Positions 51,090 to 62,500 of a DNA stretch of 64,000 bases are shown one piece after another. How positions within the stretch are numbered: the stretch's first letter is position 1; each line of letters starts with the position of its first letter. This DNA comes from a virus. The notes under the pieces are model-generated. The model was not told the DNA's origin and did no database searches. It saw only the letters and a list, made by a program, of their open reading frames with translations. The position numbers and the translations under genes were made by a program. The stretch lies in IMG/VR virus record IMGVR_UViG_3300022674_000045, positions 1-64,000 of that record, one strand, 5' to 3'.

Positions 51090-51343
51090 AGGACTAAATC
51101 CTTTGGATCAAAATATTGTGGGTCTACTGGCTTTTCTTCTTCAACTTTCTTTTCAATTTTTACATCACCAACAATACCTTCTTTTGCTCGTAATTTATCA
51201 ACCTGTTCGTTTATTGATTTAACTCTTGCTTTTATTTCTTCGAGTCTTGATCTTGGACCTGCTGGTTGCCAGTCATAAGAAAATGATGAAGTATCTGATG
51301 AAGAAGAAGCATAATCGTAATAGTAATCACTCAACATTGTCAT
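51086..51343 (-). CDS. Small coiled-coil protein
   Basis: 85 residues. A Tyr/Ser-rich N-terminus (SDYYYDYASSSSDTSSFSYDW) leads into a charged coiled coil (RLEEIKARVKSINEQVDKLRAKEG) and a short acidic tail. It overlaps the RNA polymerase beta stop by ATGA, so it is translationally coupled to it. Not recognised; a polymerase accessory role is only a guess from position. Confidence 0.55.
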   Translation of the reverse strand: MTMLSDYYYDYASSSSDTSSFSYDWQPAGPRSRLEEIKARVKSINEQVDKLRAKEGIVGDVKIEKKVEEEKPVDPQYFDPKDLVL

Positions 51344-54300
51344 TTGTGATCAACTCCTATCACTGTGAGATATGAGTTCAATAGCTTTACTGATTCTGGC
51401 ATTGTATCAAGTTCTTTTGTATCATCCAGAAGATTTTGCTCAATGAACCCCCTGATATAACTATTTTTCAAATCAATACAATCTGATTTGGTTGTTAAGA
51501 ACTCAAATAAATTGCATGGAGCATCATGACCGATCAAACATGCGGTTTCCATTTCACCACATCTCTGACCGCCCTTATTCTTTCTGCCACCCAATGGTTG
51601 AAGCGTTCTTCGTGCATATGCTCCAATACCACGAGCGGCCAATTTCTCTTCTGCAATATGAACCATTCTAAAGAAATAAATATAACCAACAGCAATTTCA
51701 TTTATAATTTCTGCTGCTGACAATGGGTCATATAATTTTTGTTTGAAATCTGTCCCTGTATATTCTAATGCCTTTTTAACATCTTCTAAACATGATGATT
51801 CAAATGGAGGCTGTATGATTGATAAATCTTTAATGAAAGAAACTGTAATCTTTTCTGGCATTTGTTGTTCAAACTGATTGTAATACCATCCACCATTTGT
51901 TTTGTCAATAATTTTTATGTAATTCAAGAGATACTTTTTAATATCACTTTGTTTTTCTTTTGCATTTAACATCTTTAGCATATTGATTTTCAAATCTTGA
52001 ACTGACATGGCCATATGCAATTCATAAAGCTGGCCAATGTTCATTCTTGAAATGATACCCAATGGGTTGATACAAATATCAAGATGTCGTCCGTCTTTTA
52101 ACTTTGGCATTTTTTCATGGGGAACTATTCTTGAAATGACACCTTTGTTACCATGTCTATTCGCCATTTTATCACCAACCTGAACTTTACGGAAATGAAC
52201 ACCATACATCTCAATTTTTATTCCTGCAATTTTTTCTCTTTTAAACTTGTATTTTCCAACATATGAAAATTTATCAAGATTGTTTTCTCGAATTATCTTC
52301 AATGCTTCATTTTTCTCAAACGTATCTTTAATGATTTTTTGAAGATATTTCTCTTTCATTTGTTGTTTGGATATTCTCTTTTCAACCCATTCTTGAAATT
52401 GTGGAATTTCATTATTCCATTCATTTGCAAATAAGTTCACTTCTGAAATGATAAAATTCCTTTTTGCTTCCAGAGTAATTGGTTCCGAGAATACTGAATA
52501 TTGATCTTCGGAATTTAACTTTTTAATTATTGCATATGGGTCGCCTCGATTTATTCTTTCGAGTTCGTCTGGAAGTGGTTTGTATTCGTCTTTTTCTAAT
52601 GATAATAAAACTTTATCTGGAGTTAATGTAAATGATAAATCTTCATAATGAACAGATGTTAAAACATCTTCATCAACCAATCTTTTTGAAATTACAATTC
52701 CATCTTCATAATTGTTTCCATAATAGACCATGACACCAGTTAATAAATTTTTACCAATGTTAATTTTTCCATCAAAACAAAAATTGCTTTCAGCAAGAAT
52801 ATCCCCAGCTTTAAACTTATCTCCTGGTTGGACATAAATATTCATTACATCCATATGTTCGACATATATTTTTCTATATGCAACATTGAAAATATCTGGT
52901 TGACCATCTGAATACATTACTATAATATATTCTTTATCAATGTGAACTACCTCTCCATCTTTTTTTGCTTTTTTAACAAACTGTGTCTGATCAGAATACA
53001 ATCCTTCACATCCTGAAGCAATCAATGGTGGATCAAAATTCTTTAACATGATTGATTGGCGCATTTGTGAGGATGCCATTTGTAATCTTGTTTGATCATC
53101 ATGTTTTAAGAACGGCGTCATTGATACAGGAATTGATAATGGTTGCTTTTCACATATCTCCCTTGTAAACCGAAGATCTTCATCTACTTTAACATTGGGT
53201 ATTAGGTTTTGTAGAACTCCACAATTATCACGATCAGGAGTATCTACTGGGCATATACGACCAAACATTGTTGGGCATATATCTCTTAAATGGCTTGGTA
53301 TGTTTTCTCTTTTAAAACCACCAGGCCCCAACAGGCTAATTCTTGAAAGCTTTGTTAATTCTTCAACTGGATTAATAGAAAAATCAAATTGAACTATATC
53401 AGAAACATTACACTCCGATAAGATTTGTGTGGTATTTGTACTAAATTTTGGTTGTCTTGCTGTCCGGTTTGAAAAACATAAATCGAATATTATCTTTGAA
53501 ACTTTTGCACCAACCATATATTCAAAACATCTAATTCTTTTATTTGTAAATAATGTATCATCGACAAATCCTTCCTCAATAATATAAAGGATTTCATCTA
53601 ACAATGTATCTTTGAAGAAGAATTTTCTGCTTATTGGATCAACTTTTGGAATTAAATCAATAGCATATAAAATATCTTCGCCTTTGGATTTTGCATTATA
53701 TTTTGAATACTTTCTTCCAAGTTCAGAAACAAAATCGTCTTGAGTATAACCTCTTGAATTATCCATTATATCGTCAAGGTCAGCTCTTAAAATTTCATAT
53801 AAATTTTCTGACTTGAGATCAATTGGTGCTGATAAATTGAACTTGCTTTTTATTTCATCAGCTGTATAATAAGCGCATAATACATTTACTAATGAGATTT
53901 TCTTACCAAGAAAACTCATTTTAACAAACGGTCTTTCACGAGTGTCAAGAAACAACATAATTGTTGCAACATTTGTCCGAATCTTAATATTCTCACCTCT
54001 TGTTACAACCGGAATATCAAATAATTGAAATAGAGGAACTTTTCTTCTTCCATTGATGATAACATAATTGTTGTCAATCAACTTCGGAATGAAAATGCTC
54101 AAATCAATATTTGCACTTCCTTTTTGAAGTTTGATTGCTAATGTTTGCTTGACTGTTTTTGATAATTCGCCAGATGAAAATCTGGAATCTTTTAAATCTA
54201 ATTCTGTAATTGTAAATCCAATTTCTTGTACTGGAGCAACTATTTCTCGGACTAACGGTAAAATTTGGTCATAGTCTTTTCTTCTCATTGTGAAGATGTT

Positions 54301-54345
54301 ATTAGCTTCGTCTTGAAGCTTAAAAGTAGGATTAATTATGTCCAA
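51340..54345 (-). CDS. rpoB-like: RNA polymerase beta-like subunit
   Basis: 1001 residues, shorter than bacterial RpoB (about 1340). Start is TTG at 54345 with GGGAGG eight bases upstream. Signatures: GPGGFKRENIPSHLRDICPTMFGRICPVDTPD (fork and rifampicin region), KVQVGDKMANRHGNKGVISRIVPHEKMP (about residue 720) and the C-terminal clamp GGQRCGEMETACLIGHDAPCNL. With the beta'-like gene it should form a phage two-subunit core polymerase, unlike the split subunits of phiKZ. No alpha, omega or sigma homologue is visible here, so partners must come from elsewhere or be unnecessary. Confidence 0.95.
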   Translation of the reverse strand: MDIINPTFKLQDEANNIFTMRRKDYDQILPLVREIVAPVQEIGFTITELDLKDSRFSSGELSKTVKQTLAIKLQKGSANIDLSIFIPKLIDNNYVIINGRRKVPLFQLFDIPVVTRGENIKIRTNVATIMLFLDTRERPFVKMSFLGKKISLVNVLCAYYTADEIKSKFNLSAPIDLKSENLYEILRADLDDIMDNSRGYTQDDFVSELGRKYSKYNAKSKGEDILYAIDLIPKVDPISRKFFFKDTLLDEILYIIEEGFVDDTLFTNKRIRCFEYMVGAKVSKIIFDLCFSNRTARQPKFSTNTTQILSECNVSDIVQFDFSINPVEELTKLSRISLLGPGGFKRENIPSHLRDICPTMFGRICPVDTPDRDNCGVLQNLIPNVKVDEDLRFTREICEKQPLSIPVSMTPFLKHDDQTRLQMASSQMRQSIMLKNFDPPLIASGCEGLYSDQTQFVKKAKKDGEVVHIDKEYIIVMYSDGQPDIFNVAYRKIYVEHMDVMNIYVQPGDKFKAGDILAESNFCFDGKINIGKNLLTGVMVYYGNNYEDGIVISKRLVDEDVLTSVHYEDLSFTLTPDKVLLSLEKDEYKPLPDELERINRGDPYAIIKKLNSEDQYSVFSEPITLEAKRNFIISEVNLFANEWNNEIPQFQEWVEKRISKQQMKEKYLQKIIKDTFEKNEALKIIRENNLDKFSYVGKYKFKREKIAGIKIEMYGVHFRKVQVGDKMANRHGNKGVISRIVPHEKMPKLKDGRHLDICINPLGIISRMNIGQLYELHMAMSVQDLKINMLKMLNAKEKQSDIKKYLLNYIKIIDKTNGGWYYNQFEQQMPEKITVSFIKDLSIIQPPFESSCLEDVKKALEYTGTDFKQKLYDPLSAAEIINEIAVGYIYFFRMVHIAEEKLAARGIGAYARRTLQPLGGRKNKGGQRCGEMETACLIGHDAPCNLFEFLTTKSDCIDLKNSYIRGFIEQNLLDDTKELDTMPESVKLLNSYLTVIGVDHK

Positions 54346-54358
54346 GATTTAAACCTCC

Positions 54359-54544
54359 CTATTCTTTATATTCTTTTTGGTACTCATTCAAACATTTTTC
54401 TAACTTGTCATCCTCAACATAGTAAGGATCTTGATTCATATTTAAAGTGTTCATTATAAGTTGCGTTAGACGGAGATCCGGGTTTGCTACCCAGATCTCA
54501 CGAATACGCTCTAAAATTCTATTAATTCTTTTCGGGTCTCTCAC
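54359..54544 (-). CDS. Small protein between RNA polymerase genes
   Basis: 61 residues, starting with GTG overlapping the beta' stop (GTGA). It is helical and charged: NRILERIREIWVANPDLRLTQLIMNTLNMN then YVEDDKLEKCLNEYQKEYKE. No family is recognised. Its conserved-looking position between the two core subunits suggests an assembly or omega-like role, which is speculation. A GGGAGG site for the beta gene follows it. Confidence 0.55.
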   Translation of the reverse strand: MRDPKRINRILERIREIWVANPDLRLTQLIMNTLNMNQDPYYVEDDKLEKCLNEYQKEYKE

Positions 54545-57261
54545 GTTATCTTTTCTCCCTTGAGAATCTTATCCATAACTCCAGAATATCTTCCTTCATA
54601 TAAGATTCCCTGTAATATTGATCTCTTTGGATTTGAGAAAGCCATTGCTAATATCCAGCTTTCTTGGTTTGGTACAGATTGAATGCTGTAATAATCGGGT
54701 TCAACTACAGCCCTATCATCTTTCAACCGCCACTTTCTGTAATTTTTCCACATAAGCTGTGCAACAACACATTCAAAATGTACATGGTATATATCTTTAT
54801 CATATACTGCAAATAAATCATGAACTATGTCTGTATATGTTTTTCCCCTAAATTTGTGTAGTAACTGTGCGACTGATGATAGATCACCAATGATGTCTTT
54901 TTGTCTTACCGTTGGATCATTTGGATCACTTGGCTCACCTTGTTCGCCTTTGATAACAGCAGATCCAGATGTATGGAATGTTCGCAGAACCAATTGAGTT
55001 CCTCTTTCACCAAGGGTTTGTGCTGCAATAATTCCTATAAATCTACTGTTCAAACTTTTGTATAAATCTCCGTAACATGTTTTGCATATTTTTGGATTTT
55101 TACAAAGTATCGGACTTCTAATTTCAATTAGTTTTCCGACCAATTGTTTGTAATTATTTTTTGTTATTAATTGAAGACCATCATTTTCTTTGTAATATCT
55201 GTTAACCAACATTCTTGCTTTTCGTTCTGAATTAACATCGACTTGTAAAAAGTCATCAGTTCCACAATCATCTAATTGATCATCAATCTGTAAATTAGCA
55301 CATGTAAAAATTAATTTTCTTGAAAGATAACCAGATGTTCCTGTATTCAATGCAACATCAAGAAGACCCTTTCTACAACCATATGTTGAAAAGAAAAACT
55401 CTTCTGGGGTCAATCCTTCGATTAAGGAATGTTTAATTGGGGTTGGTAAAATTTCCCCATCAAAATTTGAAATGAAACCACGACTTAAAATTAATTGTTT
55501 AACCTGATCCCAAGTACCTCTTGCGCCTGACTCAATCATATATGCATATTTAAAATGATCTTTCAATTCATTAATCATTTTATCATCTGAAAGAGCTGTT
55601 AACTGTTCTCTAAGATCGCCTTTTGAAAAAACTTCATCTCTTATCTCTTGTGCTCTATCAAGAGAAAAATCATCTAACGACATTGTACAACCATATAATG
55701 TTGCATATTTGAATCCAATTTTCTTTACATTGTCCAAGATTTGAATTACTTGTTCTGGTGGATATTTATCTTTAACATTATTCAATATTTCCATCAGTCT
55801 TCCTTTTGCAATTATTCCTGTTACTAAAGGATAATCTTCAGGAAGTTGATTATTAAATTCTGCTTCTCCCCATGGAATTTGTTTTCCCTTGCATGTTAAT
55901 TTCTCTTTTGATTCATTAAATATCGGGGATGTTAAATAATAAATTCCGAGAATAACATCTTGGCTTGGAGTTGTTGTAAGAGTTTCATTTGCTGGGCTAC
56001 TTAAATTTTTCACAATAGAAATTTTTGCTATAACTTCTTCTTTTGCTTCACTTGTAATTGGGACATAAACTGCCATTTGATCTCCATCGAAATCTGCATT
56101 GAATGGCGGGCATACTAATGGATGAATCTTAATAACATGATCGGTTGTTAATTTAATTTTAAATGCAAGCATCCCTAATTTATGAAGCGATGGTTGTCGG
56201 TTTAATACACAATATTCATTTGTAATAACTGTTTCGCAAACTCTATAAAGAATCAAATTATCTTTATCAATACATTCATCTACAAAATCAATTGCTTTAT
56301 TCAACAACTTAAATTTTCCCAACTCAATAATTCTTTTAGCTATTGGTAATTTAAATATTTCTAATATCATCAAATATGGTAATTTACATTCATCCAACGC
56401 TAATGTTGGGTCAGGAGTAATAACGGCTCTACCAGAGAAATCAATTCTTTTACCAAGAATATTTCCACGAATCAATCCCTCTTTCTTTGCCATTTTTTCT
56501 AAAATCCTTGTGTACAACTCATTGACATCTTTCTGTAATTGTTTGAAATATGTATAATACACGGCTTTATCTCTGTGAATATCAATAATTGTATCTTTCA
56601 TTATTTCTTTTTTCGTTAATATCTGGACATAATATCTATTTATTTTGTCCATTAATTGTTTGGCTTCTCCTGAGCTTTTTGATGTTGGTCTTAAATCTGG
56701 TGGGAGAACTATAATTTGATCAATTAACAAATTATCAATATTCTCCATTACAGTTTCCCATTCCTTTACATTATCAGCTAAAGCATCTTCAGCATATGTT
56801 TTGACCAACTGTAGAATTGCATCTGTTCGCTCCCACCTTTGTGCATCAATGGGGATTGTATCTTCATTCATCGTAACAACAAATTCTTCGTCTGTCATAT
56901 AAAGAACGCTTTTGTCATTACGCATTAAATCATCCAATGCTTTTTTGAAATTCTTTCCTGCAATATCAACTAACAAATCATAAAACAATGGATTTACAAC
57001 TTTAATTGGAATTGTGATTTTAGCAAATCTTTTTCTTCGTTCATCACTGTTAACTATGTCCACGCCACATTCTTTACATTGCCCGCCGACTTTTGAAACA
57101 CCATGATATTTTCCACATTGACATGTATAATTTCTCACGGGTCCAAAAATTTGCTCAGAGAATAATCCTTCAGAATGAAATTTTCTTTTTCCGAATGTTT
57201 TTAGAGACGTTACTTCGTCTAGGTTTTCACAAAAAGATGCGTAATCTAAAATCTTTGGCAT
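54541..57261 (-). CDS. rpoC-like: RNA polymerase beta'-like subunit
   Basis: 906 residues versus about 1400 in E. coli RpoC. Cys47, Cys49, Cys62 and Cys65 (CQCGKYHGVSKVGGQCKEC) form the N-terminal zinc-binding domain. ILGKRIDFSGRAVITPDP is the lid/rudder region and FNADFDGDQMAVYVP (about residue 387) is the catalytic triad of Asp that binds Mg2+. AAQTLGERGTQLVLRTFHTSG is the trigger-helix/bridge region. The large beta'-specific inserts of bacteria are missing. All catalytic residues are present, so the enzyme should be active. Confidence 0.95.
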   Translation of the reverse strand: MPKILDYASFCENLDEVTSLKTFGKRKFHSEGLFSEQIFGPVRNYTCQCGKYHGVSKVGGQCKECGVDIVNSDERRKRFAKITIPIKVVNPLFYDLLVDIAGKNFKKALDDLMRNDKSVLYMTDEEFVVTMNEDTIPIDAQRWERTDAILQLVKTYAEDALADNVKEWETVMENIDNLLIDQIIVLPPDLRPTSKSSGEAKQLMDKINRYYVQILTKKEIMKDTIIDIHRDKAVYYTYFKQLQKDVNELYTRILEKMAKKEGLIRGNILGKRIDFSGRAVITPDPTLALDECKLPYLMILEIFKLPIAKRIIELGKFKLLNKAIDFVDECIDKDNLILYRVCETVITNEYCVLNRQPSLHKLGMLAFKIKLTTDHVIKIHPLVCPPFNADFDGDQMAVYVPITSEAKEEVIAKISIVKNLSSPANETLTTTPSQDVILGIYYLTSPIFNESKEKLTCKGKQIPWGEAEFNNQLPEDYPLVTGIIAKGRLMEILNNVKDKYPPEQVIQILDNVKKIGFKYATLYGCTMSLDDFSLDRAQEIRDEVFSKGDLREQLTALSDDKMINELKDHFKYAYMIESGARGTWDQVKQLILSRGFISNFDGEILPTPIKHSLIEGLTPEEFFFSTYGCRKGLLDVALNTGTSGYLSRKLIFTCANLQIDDQLDDCGTDDFLQVDVNSERKARMLVNRYYKENDGLQLITKNNYKQLVGKLIEIRSPILCKNPKICKTCYGDLYKSLNSRFIGIIAAQTLGERGTQLVLRTFHTSGSAVIKGEQGEPSDPNDPTVRQKDIIGDLSSVAQLLHKFRGKTYTDIVHDLFAVYDKDIYHVHFECVVAQLMWKNYRKWRLKDDRAVVEPDYYSIQSVPNQESWILAMAFSNPKRSILQGILYEGRYSGVMDKILKGEKIT

Positions 57262-57726: not shown

Positions 57727-58070
57727 GCTCCTATCACCTCTTGTTTCCTGTATTCTATTTCATCCCAAGGTGTAAAGTAACAATCATCTAAATTAAAGCA
57801 ACATAGCATCGTTGAAATCATCTTCAATGTATTTTCGTTTAATTCTAACTCCCTTAATTTATTTGGAATACAAAATTCACCTGTACCTGGATCAGCATTT
57901 GGATGTGGATTATTTAAAAATATATTATCTATTTTTCCATCTACTGTTTGAATTTTATATCCGCGAATAACAAACTTTGGATCTAATTTTAATATTTCAT
58001 GAATTTGATTTCTAAAAATTAACTTGTAAGGAGTATGAACATTTCTGATTGTTTCAGTTTTTATGTTCAT
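57702..58070 (-). CDS. Putative E2-like (UBC-fold) protein
   Basis: 122 residues with an AGGAGCTGCA site. NNPHPNADPGTGEFCIPNKL carries an HPN tripeptide (residues 56-58) and Cys67 after a short gap, the order of E2 conjugating enzymes in which HPN precedes the catalytic Cys. A Trp follows (PWDEIEY, Trp102) with CCFNLDDCYF between, similar to the downstream E2 loop. The protein is short, as are several prokaryotic E2 families. It is coupled by TAATG to an E1-like gene and followed by an operon containing a Ubl and a JAB peptidase. I infer thioester transfer of the Ubl; the family match is by motif only. Confidence 0.55.
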   Translation of the reverse strand: MNIKTETIRNVHTPYKLIFRNQIHEILKLDPKFVIRGYKIQTVDGKIDNIFLNNPHPNADPGTGEFCIPNKLRELELNENTLKMISTMLCCFNLDDCYFTPWDEIEYRKQEVIGAWQTTIRD

Positions 58071-58930
58071 TATGCAGCTCCTGTTTCAGGTATCAATTCA
58101 ATAAAATATTTTCCATCCGTTTGATTTAAGGCAACCACAAAATTGTTAAATTGACATTGGGTTGCAACGGCTCTCGATAGATTGATTATTATATCCCCAC
58201 TTGTTCTTAAGGAATTTTTTGGGATTGAAAACTCTGACATTGGGAATAAACTACTCCCAACAAACACATCTACATCAGCTTGTTTATTTGCTTGTAGAAT
58301 TGGAACTATTTTTTCCGGAAGGTTAACAAATTTTTCTTCATTATCCGGATCTTCATATACAATATCATATGAGCAACTGTCAAGATGTTTTACATGATCC
58401 AACTCATATTTTTGAATAGATTGATCTTTTATGAGTTTTGAAATTGTATCATTATAGACCAACATTAATATTAGACTAGCTGCGTATCTCAAATCTTCTT
58501 TTGTTAATTCTGTTAGATACTTGCCCTCTGATTTGACTCTATACTCAACATTTTTTCTACAATCCACCATAAGATATCTTGAAGAAATATAAAGTCTTGC
58601 ACTGATTTCTTTTAATCTGTCATATGTGAAATCTCTGCAATCCAAAACTAAATCACATTTTGGGATTTTAGTTTTTCCTTCAATATATTTCTCATTAAAA
58701 CTGATTATTGTAACATCAGGATTTTTACGAGAAATAATTTCATCTAGGGCGTCTGTCTTTTTCAAACCAACATCAATCTGTCGATATATGGAGTTTTTGA
58801 GGTTTTTTGATTCAACTGTATCGTGGTCTATAACTATTAGAGTTTCAAGAGTTTCAAGATTCGAAACAGCGTTGGCAACAAACCCTCCAAGGGTTCCAAT
58901 GCCAATTACTGCGATTGATTTATATACCAC
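58070..58930 (-). CDS. ThiF/E1-like adenylyltransferase 1
   Basis: 286 residues, start GTG at 58930 with AGGGAGAA upstream. IAVIGIGTLGG (residues 7-16) is the nucleotide-binding loop. The acidic strand IVIDHDTVESKNL, Arg50, Lys57-Lys58 and LVLDCRDF (Asp97) are the expected ATP and Mg2+ contacts of E1/ThiF/MoeB enzymes. These adenylate the C-terminal Gly of ubiquitin-like proteins. A candidate active Cys lies in HLDSCSYD. The C-terminal 90 residues are an extra domain. It overlaps the E2-like start, so the two are probably a working pair. Confidence 0.8.
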   Translation of the reverse strand: MVYKSIAVIGIGTLGGFVANAVSNLETLETLIVIDHDTVESKNLKNSIYRQIDVGLKKTDALDEIISRKNPDVTIISFNEKYIEGKTKIPKCDLVLDCRDFTYDRLKEISARLYISSRYLMVDCRKNVEYRVKSEGKYLTELTKEDLRYAASLILMLVYNDTISKLIKDQSIQKYELDHVKHLDSCSYDIVYEDPDNEEKFVNLPEKIVPILQANKQADVDVFVGSSLFPMSEFSIPKNSLRTSGDIIINLSRAVATQCQFNNFVVALNQTDGKYFIELIPETGAA

Positions 58931-58997: not shown

Positions 58998-59579
58998 TTA
59001 TGCTACAATATCTTGCAATTCTATTAGTTCAAAATCTTTTTTCTTACTATAAGTTCTGACAAACTCAATCTCTGTCGGACCAACAGGTTCTGGTCTGTAT
59101 TGAGCTTTATATTTAAAATTTTTGTTCGCTATTTCAACAGGGTATGACAACGGTATTTCATATAAATATTTCTTTATATATTTATTACCTTCAAGCATCT
59201 GCATTTGTATGGGAGTATTTGGGTCAATTGCCCTAAGCTCAGATACAATTGTTTGTCTAAAAATTGCATCATCTCGCTCATTTCTTATTTTCATCTCCCT
59301 CTTTACAAACTCATCTTGACGGCCTTTACCATTTATTTTATAGAAATTTTCTTTTCGTTTAAGGGATTTAATAGCACGTCCAAAAGATTTGTTTTTCCCC
59401 TTTAAAATATTGAATGAATCTAATAGCGAACAGATTGAAATTCCTCTTGCTTCAATCCTACCTGCTTCAGAATTGAATAACAAACATACTGTCATTGCAT
59501 TGCTCATGATTGGAGTTTTTACATTATAGAAATTAATTCTATCAACTCCATGTATATCCAAGAAATTTTTATTTAACAT
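58998..59579 (-). CDS. Hypothetical protein within the Ubl cluster
   Basis: 193 residues with an AAAGGGG site. NAMTVCLLFNSEAGRIEARGISICSLLDSFNILKGKNKSFGRAIKSLKRK is similar to a segment I know from uncharacterised phage proteins with ARGIxICSxxDxFN...GRAxKAL. The rest is basic and helical, with DPNTPIQMQMLEGNKYIKKYLYEIP. It lies between the Ubl gene and E1 gene 1, so a role in the pathway or as substrate is possible. No catalytic motif is visible. Confidence 0.5.
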   Translation of the reverse strand: MLNKNFLDIHGVDRINFYNVKTPIMSNAMTVCLLFNSEAGRIEARGISICSLLDSFNILKGKNKSFGRAIKSLKRKENFYKINGKGRQDEFVKREMKIRNERDDAIFRQTIVSELRAIDPNTPIQMQMLEGNKYIKKYLYEIPLSYPVEIANKNFKYKAQYRPEPVGPTEIEFVRTYSKKKDFELIELQDIVA

Positions 59580-59633: not shown

Positions 59634-60113
59634 CTAGCAACCCTTTTTGCCTGCGGGTTTCAGGAACTCAAGGTTGTCACCTTGCTTCAACACATAATCA
59701 CCGCCAACGTCTTTGCCGCTGACCAGACCGGTGGAAAGTTTGTCCACGTTCAGGACTTCCCGAAGGAACTCGCCCACCTGTTTCACACTACGACCCACGA
59801 CTGGGAAGTTACCGGAAGAGGCACCGCATGAAACATGAATGGTTGTGGTTGTGCGGCTTCCAAATTCACCGCTTGGTTTGGTGATAACGCTGCGACCTGT
59901 AAATTCAACACCAGCAATAGCACCAGTGCCTGTAGCAGGAGCCGCTTTGGTGATACTAACGGCCGAACGACCGAACTGACTAAGGATGGACGCAATCACG
60001 TCTTCCTTCGGACGTTTGGTGACTCCAACAATACCCAACTCATCGACACACATACGTTTCAACTCTTTAGAGGTCTTCGCTTCCAATTCTTCTCTGGTAA
60101 AGTATGTACCCAT
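59634..60113 (-). CDS. Ubiquitin-like modifier with SAP-like N-terminus
   Basis: 159 residues from the ATG at 60113, preceded by AAAAAGGAG; a GTG seven codons upstream overlaps that site. Residues about 5-48 (FTREELEAKTSKELKRMCVDELG...KEDVIASILSQF) look like a SAP/HeH helix-extended-loop-helix nucleic acid-binding motif. Residues about 88-152 (TTTIHVSC, VKQVGEFLREVLNV, VSGKDVGGDYVLKQGDNLEFL) fit a beta-grasp ThiS/MoaD-like fold. The tail KPAGKKGC ends in Gly-Cys, not Gly-Gly; removal of the Cys would expose Gly. The gene is notably G+C-richer than its neighbours. It lies between two E1-like genes. Confidence 0.65.
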   Translation of the reverse strand: MGTYFTREELEAKTSKELKRMCVDELGIVGVTKRPKEDVIASILSQFGRSAVSITKAAPATGTGAIAGVEFTGRSVITKPSGEFGSRTTTTIHVSCGASSGNFPVVGRSVKQVGEFLREVLNVDKLSTGLVSGKDVGGDYVLKQGDNLEFLKPAGKKGC

Positions 60114-60134: not shown

Positions 60135-60818
60135 TTAGTTGATTGCTCTAATTTTAGAGCTTGCGTTCATTGACAGAATATCAAAATAGATTTCTGATCT
60201 TTCATAGGACTCTTTAACTACTGCGTTATAAAAAGTCCAACACATGATTGTTGCGACCCCCAAATTTGTAAAATATAGCTGGGGGTCAGAGTTAGCTAAT
60301 TCTTCACATGACATCTCATTTGGTAACTTGTCGGTTGGATTTGCAATCTCAGGATGGTATCTGCACAAATCAGGTGTAAGGTCTTTTCCTTCCTTACGAA
60401 CATACAATTGTACATTTCCATCAGTAAATTCATTTCCTCCGGAGATCAAAACAACATTTTTTAATTCTTTACAATAATTCCCTACTATCATCCGGGTCTT
60501 ATGATTGTCAACGCCCATAAACACAATATCGCCTTCTAGAATAACTTCCGAAATGTTTTCCGGAGTTACATATTCTTCAAAGGCCTCCAACCTCAATTTA
60601 GGATACTTCATCTGGAGCTCACCGGCTTTAATATCAGCTTTATTCCCGAGTCTAACAAACTCTTGTCTTTCATAATTTTTTGCTTCGTATTTGTCTCCAT
60701 CTACAAGCAAGATATCAGCTGATAAATCATTTGAATAATTTAGAAATCGGCACAATCTTTCTATAAGGATTGAACCGACCCCGCCGAGCCCTATCACAAC
60801 AATACCCATTTTATTCAT
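60135..60818 (-). CDS. ThiF/E1-like adenylyltransferase 2
   Basis: 227 residues with a GGAGAAGTAACA site. GIVVIGLGGVGS (residues 5-16), LLVDGDKYEAKNYERQEF (Asp40, Asn48, Arg51), Lys60/Lys64 and MGVDNHKTR (Asp104) are the E1/ThiF nucleotide and Mg2+ sites. PNEMSCEELANSDPQLYFTNLGVATIM places Cys171 where E1/ThiF enzymes have the catalytic Cys, and matches the layout of PRTRC-type ThiF proteins. It should adenylate the Ubl encoded immediately downstream. It overlaps nothing and lies two bases after the JAB gene. Confidence 0.85.
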   Translation of the reverse strand: MNKMGIVVIGLGGVGSILIERLCRFLNYSNDLSADILLVDGDKYEAKNYERQEFVRLGNKADIKAGELQMKYPKLRLEAFEEYVTPENISEVILEGDIVFMGVDNHKTRMIVGNYCKELKNVVLISGGNEFTDGNVQLYVRKEGKDLTPDLCRYHPEIANPTDKLPNEMSCEELANSDPQLYFTNLGVATIMCWTFYNAVVKESYERSEIYFDILSMNASSKIRAIN

Positions 60819-60820
60819 TG

Positions 60821-62500
60821 TTACTTCTCCTTCCCAAACACACGTTTAAACATTGCAAATAATGTATCTTCCCGTTTTTGAGCAGAGGGTGGTTCCGGGA
60901 TTGGTTTGCTTGCTCCATTTGGTTCAGGAATTCTTTCAATAGTCTGATCGGATTTTATCGCCTCTTGAAGAGCTACACGATTAATCTCTTCAGTTTCCGC
61001 TGATAAATATTCACCTGAGTCAGTTCTACTCTGTTCAATCAGTTGTGCTTCTTGTGAATAGCAGGCACTTCCCCCACGTATTTCATCCGGTGGGCTGTCG
61101 ATCAGTGAATAACAGAACGGGCATTGTTTCTCATCAGCAAAACGATGAAAACTATTTCCGCAAGATGGACATGTAATAAAAGCTGATGGTGGTCTATAAC
61201 CATCTTCTGGTTTAAGTGGTGAATCGTCTTCCTTGGTGTAATGATTTGGAAGTTCATCTTCATTTACTAAACTCAAATATTCATCGGTTTTACAATTTGG
61301 ACATACTGGCAACATAAGAGCGTCTGTATTATCCACGACGATTTGTTTACATTTATCACATTTATAAACTTCTGTTTCGTCAAAGTCGTCCTCTGATTGT
61401 TCTGCCAGGAATTTATGACCTCTGAATACACATGTCTTGCAGGGAAAGAACTCATCGTCTGCGCCATCGAATACCACATCATGTTTTGGAAACTCAATAG
61501 GTTTAACTTTTACGCCCACATTAAATGGACTGGCTGCTCTATTATCCATTCCTGGAAGTGGCAGCTGTTTTTGAGTTGGAGTTGTTCTGGCAGGAGCTGT
61601 ATATCTTCCTGCTTGGTTCCACAATGAGGCATCGAAATTTCGACCCCATCCTGGACTCTGACTTCTATGTTGACCATAAACTCCATACCCATAGTTGTAT
61701 CCGTAATTATTATATTGATATTGATATGTGCCTTTTTCAACCATTCCCATCCACTCGGATGGAACTTTATGATACTTTTCGGATACATTAACCACATAGC
61801 GTTTGTCATATCTTCTATAAGAATATGAAAACTGATTGGTTGCTTCTTTAACTTCTTCCATCTTGCCATTGATCCATCTATAGACACGTCTGGTTGGCCT
61901 CTGCTCCACTTCATCAATGTCTTTTGTTTTGATCAATCGCTCTACATAGTCTTCTGGTTCGACAACAAATCTATGACCATTGGCAACAATTGAAGCTGTA
62001 ATGCTAACCTCATCGTTATTGACATTACCAACGGTGATATGTAATCCATCAAAATGTTCTTCATCTTTATCATCCGTTCCTGAATGAAATGCTGACATGC
62101 TGGCATGACTATGAATTGTGCCAACCATTGTCATTCCTTCTATGGTAATAGCTTTGTTATAATCACATGCTGCACCTGTCACTTTTTGATGCGGGGGAAC
62201 AATTTTATAAACTCTTTTTGTTTCATCATAAAATAAAAGGACAATTGATTCCCCATAATATTCTTTATATACCTCTCTGAAAAATGCAACAACTCTAGCA
62301 AATTGCCCGCCAGGAATCTTTTTAATGTTCATACGGGCCATCTTTTCAACACTCTCCAAAATGGAAATATTCTGAACTGGAGCGATACTTTCCATAATTC
62401 CCATTTTCTTCTTTAGAAAAATCCCCTCTTTCGCTACGATATAACATATATCATCATCCGGGATGGGGGAAGTCCCATCATTCACATGAATCTTGAACAT
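60821..62500 (-). CDS. JAMM/JAB peptidase with multiple zinc-ribbon CxxC pairs
   Basis: 559 residues from the ATG at 62500 (GAGGAG upstream); the frame extends to 62566 but that part overlaps its upstream neighbour. His130, His132, Ser140 and Asp143 (GTIHSHASMSAFHSGTDD) satisfy HxH(x7)Sx2D, with Glu84 as a candidate JAMM glutamate. JAB enzymes cleave isopeptide or C-terminal bonds of ubiquitin-like proteins. Residues about 290-305 are Tyr/Gly/Asn rich. Between about 353 and 463 there are five CxxC pairs (PCKTC, KCDKC, VCPNC, TCPSC, QCPFC). The likely roles are maturation of the Ubl tail and deconjugation. Confidence 0.85.
   Translation of the reverse strand: MFKIHVNDGTSPIPDDDICYIVAKEGIFLKKKMGIMESIAPVQNISILESVEKMARMNIKKIPGGQFARVVAFFREVYKEYYGESIVLLFYDETKRVYKIVPPHQKVTGAACDYNKAITIEGMTMVGTIHSHASMSAFHSGTDDKDEEHFDGLHITVGNVNNDEVSITASIVANGHRFVVEPEDYVERLIKTKDIDEVEQRPTRRVYRWINGKMEEVKEATNQFSYSYRRYDKRYVVNVSEKYHKVPSEWMGMVEKGTYQYQYNNYGYNYGYGVYGQHRSQSPGWGRNFDASLWNQAGRYTAPARTTPTQKQLPLPGMDNRAASPFNVGVKVKPIEFPKHDVVFDGADDEFFPCKTCVFRGHKFLAEQSEDDFDETEVYKCDKCKQIVVDNTDALMLPVCPNCKTDEYLSLVNEDELPNHYTKEDDSPLKPEDGYRPPSAFITCPSCGNSFHRFADEKQCPFCYSLIDSPPDEIRGGSACYSQEAQLIEQSRTDSGEYLSAETEEINRVALQEAIKSDQTIERIPEPNGASKPIPEPPSAQKREDTLFAMFKRVFGKEK

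Follow-up and report, generated by a model that had tools for sequence, protein, structure and literature searches.

A putative ubiquitin-like conjugation pathway beside the RNA polymerase genes of a large tailed phage clade

Results

We analysed a stretch of 64,000 nucleotides (nt), positions 1 to 64,000 of the IMG/VR virus record IMGVR_UViG_3300022674_000045 and hereafter called the window, and characterized a gene encoding a candidate ubiquitin-like (Ubl) modifier together with the operon that surrounds it (Table 1). The complete 101.6-kb record contains tail sheath, baseplate wedge and terminase genes and therefore represents a tailed phage. Using IMG/VR searches, Ubl homologues were found on 48 other contigs, the largest of which is 277 kb long. 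Of 58 loci, a number that counts overlapping copies of some contigs (ca. 49 contigs in all), 55 have the complete gene order JAB, E1, Ubl, E1b (a second ThiF-like protein), E2-like protein and RNA polymerase beta' subunit, and the other three are cut by contig ends. A search of GTDB genomes for relatives returned two loci only, one of which is clearly the same phage operon on a contig of a metagenome-assembled genome (MAG). The other, L070:8022-8234 on a Planctomycetota MAG contig, encodes a stand-alone 70-residue Ubl that ends in KPAGTKG and is devoid of a SAP-type domain. Subsequent comparisons were based on 44 distinct Ubl frames, an alignment and tree of 41 Ubl sequences, 42 sequences each of E1, E1b and the E2-like protein, and 43 JAB sequences. 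Judged from gene content and order, a complete-looking ubiquitin-style tagging pathway adjoins the RNA polymerase genes of a clade of large tailed phages.

Table 1. Features of the Ubl operon in the window (position 1 is the first letter of the window; E-values refer to profile matches).
Feature	Position	Strand	Remarks
RNA polymerase beta subunit, phage	51340..54345	-	named from recognisable sequence and position, not by search
RNA polymerase beta' subunit, phage	54541..57261	-	next conserved gene of the operon
E2-like protein, 122 residues	57702..58070	-	HPNADPGTGEFC motif (HPN...C); predicted fold
E1b, second ThiF-like protein	58070..58930	-	ThiF 1.7e-15; 42 homologues
193-residue open reading frame (ORF) between Ubl and E1b	58998..59579	-	outside the fixed gene order; variable operon position
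Hairpin straight after the Ubl stop codon	59600..59618	-	G-rich stem, TTCG loop; strong hairpin here in most loci, sequence not conserved
Ubl modifier candidate, 159 residues	59634..60113	-	Rho_N/SAP-type domain and beta-grasp domain; ends AGKKGC
C-terminal Lys-Gly-Cys of the Ubl	59637..59645	-	KG invariant, Cys optional
Beta-grasp (ThiS/TGS-like) Ubl domain, ca. residues 64-154	59652..59924	-	TGS/ThiS profile matches; Foldseek TGS
Rho_N/SAP-type helical N-terminal domain, residues 5-50	59964..60101	-	Pfam Rho_N; structural alignment to Rho
E1-like adenylating enzyme, ThiF fold	60135..60818	-	ThiF 1.9e-19; PRTRC_ThiF 4.7e-9
JAB/JAMM protein with zinc-ribbon-like C-terminal region	60821..62500	-	probable start ATG at 62500; PRTRC_A 6.5e-12

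The Ubl ORF starts with an ATG at position 60113, preceded by AAGGAG, and its product ends in LEFLKPAGKKGC. A first-pass annotation, made from the letters of the window alone, had described a SAP-like N-terminus coupled to a MoaD/ThiS-like domain, and both profile searches and a structural model bear this out: the N-terminal domain is of Rho_N/SAP type and its fusion partner is a ThiS/TGS-like Ubl domain. The Pfam Rho_N match of the window protein (E=0.001) is below the curated cut-off; across the 41 homologues, Rho_N was detected in 31 (best 1.8e-9) and SAP in 4. In the AlphaFold model, residues 5-50 align to the N-terminal domain of Rho (VIA-align; 2a8v_A, Z 6.8, root-mean-square deviation (rmsd) 1.6 A, 45 residues aligned), and Rho accounts for 13 of the top 14 structural rows. 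Profile and helical fold both identify a Rho_N/SAP-type domain, predicted by similarity to be of a nucleic-acid-binding type. Lysines K33 and K36 of this domain are conserved. A related phage encodes a further protein upstream (L030:1393-1776) whose N-terminal SAP-type domain is similar.

The C-terminal domain matched TGS profiles in 33 and ThiS profiles in 24 of the 41 homologues with modest E-values (best ca. 6e-4), and TGS domains were the only Foldseek matches with a probability above 0.7 (0.82 and 0.77; E 0.4 and 0.74). We consider the beta-grasp assignment good but not proven by the fold alone. TGS as the best-probability fold match, together with the Rho_N-type domain and the high apparent expression described below, would also fit a nucleic-acid-binding structural or transcription protein, with the beta-grasp domain serving as a TGS-type module for interactions and never undergoing conjugation. 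Such a protein would, however, leave the invariant C-terminal KG and the strict linkage to E1, JAB and E2-like genes to be accounted for, and we regard this explanation as highly improbable.

K157 and G158 are invariant across the 41 aligned Ubl homologues and the tail of the Ubl is therefore not due to chance. Among the 44 distinct frames, 30 end exactly at KG, 11 carry one additional Cys, and single frames continue with Phe, with VILTK or with a long tail. Further, two SAP-Ubl units are arranged head to tail in one frame at L039:5998-6957, reminiscent of polyubiquitin; the two units differ in sequence and thus a duplication introduced during assembly is unlikely. The simplest reading is that KG represents the working end of the Ubl and that whatever comes after it would be removed or tolerated. 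Where a tail exists, cleavage at KG is likely, because Cys, Phe, five-residue and long tails and even a second SAP-Ubl unit all occur at this place. The annotation had emphasized a single residue after the glycine and a resulting need for maturation by the JAB enzyme. The single residue holds for the window Ubl, for which trimming back to KG by the JAB enzyme is plausible, but neither feature is general, given the low number of Cys-ending frames and the 30 that already end at KG. Alternatively, the terminal Cys could itself be functional, either as a thiol or as a stored Gly-Cys adduct, and not be a propeptide. Its presence in 11 of 14 tailed homologues is more uniform than would be found for random tails, and the CysO-cysteine adduct, which is cleaved by a JAB enzyme, offers a parallel. 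Yet Cys is absent from 30 of 44 frames, Phe and longer tails are found at the same place, and in the tree of 41 Ubls at least five switches between presence and absence of the residue fall on supported branches (seven switches by parsimony), making a role of the Cys itself very unlikely in our view.

The two genes upstream of the Ubl encode putative enzymes with conserved active-site residues. The JAB protein, which the annotation had proposed as the processing enzyme for the Ubl, indeed has an intact JAMM motif (E, HSH, S and D at least 95% conserved in 43 sequences). Its match to PRTRC_A (TIGR03735; 6.5e-12) reaches 45.4 bits compared with a cut-off of 101.8, and profile-profile comparison with PRTRC_A-type proteins yielded E=1.4e-21. 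In E1, the ATP-site residues and a cysteine within a shared SC-E motif are conserved in 42 sequences. Profile-profile comparison with plasmid PRTRC-type E1s resulted in E=3.6e-38 over 223 columns, and the match to PRTRC ThiF (TIGR03736; 4.7e-9) falls under the curated cut-off.

Beyond what had been annotated, the operon contains, in addition to E1, a protein that combines an E2-type motif with a probable E2-like fold, and the RNA polymerase genes come next. In the E2-like protein, H56 and C67 are invariant and P57 and N58 at least 90% conserved (42 homologues). Its structural model is of high confidence (predicted local distance difference test (pLDDT) 92.5) with UBE2K as the best Foldseek match (E 0.027, probability 0.94), and E2s fill all 50 rows of the VIA comparison (best Z 5.0, which is moderate; rmsd 3.5 A, 90 residues aligned). 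The model aligns from ca. residue 30 of E2s and therefore lacks the first helix. An hmmsearch of PDB sequences with E-values up to 10 gave two matches only, both of them E2s aligned at the HPN-Cys motif. Pfam returned no match to a ubiquitin-conjugating or Prok-E2 family, Prok-E2_D included, for any of the 42 homologues, and profile comparison did not connect them to Prok-E2_D or PRTRC_B (E=0.5).

Eukaryotic E1s have an inactive half, and by analogy E1b may be a partner of E1. Nucleotide-site Gly and Asp residues are conserved in E1b. Its C-terminus usually reads ETGAA or GGA with synonymous codon changes, indicating that conservation of the tail is at the level of the protein. We considered whether ETGAA could merely reflect a ribosome-binding site of the overlapping E2 gene and rejected this based on the synonymous variation and the persistence of the motif where the E2 start differs. 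The C-terminal region of E1b could be a beta-grasp domain, but its profile comparison with the Ubls did not reveal a second Ubl (E 0.079 and 0.68).

Codon usage sets the Ubl gene apart. With a GC content at third codon positions (GC3) of 0.49, it ranks first among 60 ORFs of the window (median 0.22), and in 49 of 55 loci the Ubl has a higher GC3 than the other four operon genes compared. At L043 the Ubl value is 0.77, compared with 0.13-0.21 in the neighbouring genes. CGT, CTG, ATC, TTC and ACC are used more and TTA, AGA and ATA less, a shift that is usual in highly expressed genes. This bias is absent from tail sheath and other structural genes, and high expression is therefore deduced from the codon pattern and the hairpin following the gene and not by comparison with genes known to be abundant. 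The mean minimum free energy of the 60 nt after the stop codon is -21.4 kcal/mol for the Ubl compared with -4.5 to -6.0 after E1, E1b and E2, with z < -3 in 35 of 43 sequences. An intrinsic terminator was rejected as an explanation, since a T-run is present in only 3 of 43. Given that T-runs are rare and that the hairpin sequence varies, the element resembles an mRNA end or stability element. Taken together, codon usage and hairpin suggest that more Ubl than enzyme is made, as for a tag that is consumed.

The ORF located between the Ubl and E1b has an apparent homologue in L006.

Discussion

In our interpretation, the phage encodes a ubiquitin-like conjugation cascade that is related to PRTRC/type 6d plasmid cassettes and has the Ubl as its modifier; we assign this reading a probability of ca. 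70%. The JAB enzyme would trim any tail and thereby expose the invariant C-terminal glycine, which E1 would adenylate and pass on to the E2-like protein for conjugation onto proteins. JAB would likely also take the Ubl off conjugated proteins. Through its Rho_N/SAP-type domain the tag, or the protein that carries it, would stay bound to nucleic acid, and production of the tag would exceed that of the enzymes. The nucleic-acid-binding-type domain on the tag suggests that, during infection, proteins close to DNA or RNA are tagged by these phages. That the tagging is tethered to DNA is a reasonable hypothesis for which the support consists of this domain and the RNA polymerase neighbourhood; from the latter one may speculate that the transcription apparatus or genome-bound proteins are the targets. 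A more far-reaching version, in which an abundant nucleic-acid-tethered Ubl with its own E1, E2 and deconjugase forms a conserved core system that tags RNA polymerase or genome-bound proteins and so controls transcription, is tentative, and we would sooner bet against it than for it.

Several points weigh against conjugation. All evidence is derived from sequence, the sampled loci overlap in part, and no E3 or target was identified. The Ubl ends in KG and not in GG, and most homologues do not have a tail to remove. The model of the Ubl has a middling pLDDT of 71.7, and the Foldseek E-values obtained with it are weak. In case of the E2-like protein, a best structural Z of 5.0 could by itself reflect a common arrangement, and the hmmsearch E-values to the two E2s are 0.44 and 1.2.

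With a ThiS-like domain and a ThiF-type E1 in hand, the Ubl could instead be a ThiS/MoaD-like sulfur carrier, whose thiocarboxylate, formed after activation of the Gly by E1, would serve nucleotide or cofactor modification without any protein being tagged; clusters of E1, JAB and Ubl genes of sulfur metabolism are known (PMC1779556). The conserved presence of the E2-like protein in the operon speaks against this, no rhodanese or sulfur-metabolism gene was recognised adjoining the operon, and high apparent expression and the tandem Ubl suit a consumable tag better. The C-terminal Gly-Gly of ThiS/MoaD sulfur carriers is not present in the Ubl, where KG is invariant at this place in the 41 aligned homologues. 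We consider a sulfur carrier unlikely.

The conjugation reading is informed by comparison with known systems. In type 6d operons, genes for an E1, an E2-like protein and a helical protein accompany those for a JAB protein that has an N-terminal domain and for a small Ubl whose C-terminal Gly is conserved (PMC1779556); from their gene content we read these operons as the same kind of system as PRTRC cassettes. PRTRC-type cassettes of plasmids and of Bacillus phage vB_BauM_KLEB27-3 are among the closest annotated relatives of the E1 in the window. Two related cassettes of plasmid or phage origin encode four-unit poly-Ubls with units ending in GTKG or GVKG, and in two the JAB protein begins with a Ubl-like domain. 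PRTRC/type 6d cassettes and the phage set share a JAB protein with a conserved N-terminal extension, a ThiF-type E1, a separate E2-like protein, and a small Ubl in which the C-terminal Gly is conserved, the end is of KG type and poly-Ubl forms occur. In contrast, the phage Ubl carries a Rho_N/SAP-type domain and lacks a Prok_Ub or PRTRC_C match (profile comparison with PRTRC_C/Prok_Ub gave E=0.0018 over only the last 17 columns), the phage E2 retains the classical HPN and has no Prok-E2_D match, and a second ThiF-like protein and the RNA polymerase operon setting are particular to the phage set. We therefore file the phage set as probably working like PRTRC/type 6d, with clearly related E1 and JAB, but not as a PRTRC member, because its Ubl and E2 are too divergent to be matched by PRTRC families.

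Other systems are more distant. In eukaryotic SDE2 the order of Ubl and SAP is reversed and cleavage parts the Ubl from SAP, whereas in the phage protein SAP remains on the Ubl. The Bil and Bub systems are bacterial E1, E2 and JAB cascades. CBASS with Cap2 and Cap3 is likewise such a cascade (PMC10097602); all three differ from the phage set in being bacterial operons of other architecture, with defence roles shown for CBASS. In PADLOC, the window proteins match only the E1 domain of E1-E2 models. The Lambda TAPI Ubl, found with the JAB-containing TAPK, is also a phage Ubl adjoining JAB and has a conserved C-terminal Gly, but no E1 or E2 is described for it there and its context is tail assembly (PMC1779556). 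A search of the available literature collection returned no paper on a phage PRTRC-like cascade. Novel features are the fusion of SAP to Ubl, the location within an operon of phage RNA polymerase genes, a second ThiF-like protein and the signs of high Ubl expression.

Conclusion

The best-known experimentally characterized bacterial Ubl cascades serve defence, whereas the putative phage cascade described here appears to be a fixed part of the genome of its clade, located beside the RNA polymerase genes. If conjugation does take place, this would be a viral tagging pathway in which every component is virus-encoded, and it would provide a tractable system for studying how a nucleic-acid-binding domain, fused directly to the tag, aims ubiquitin-like tagging.
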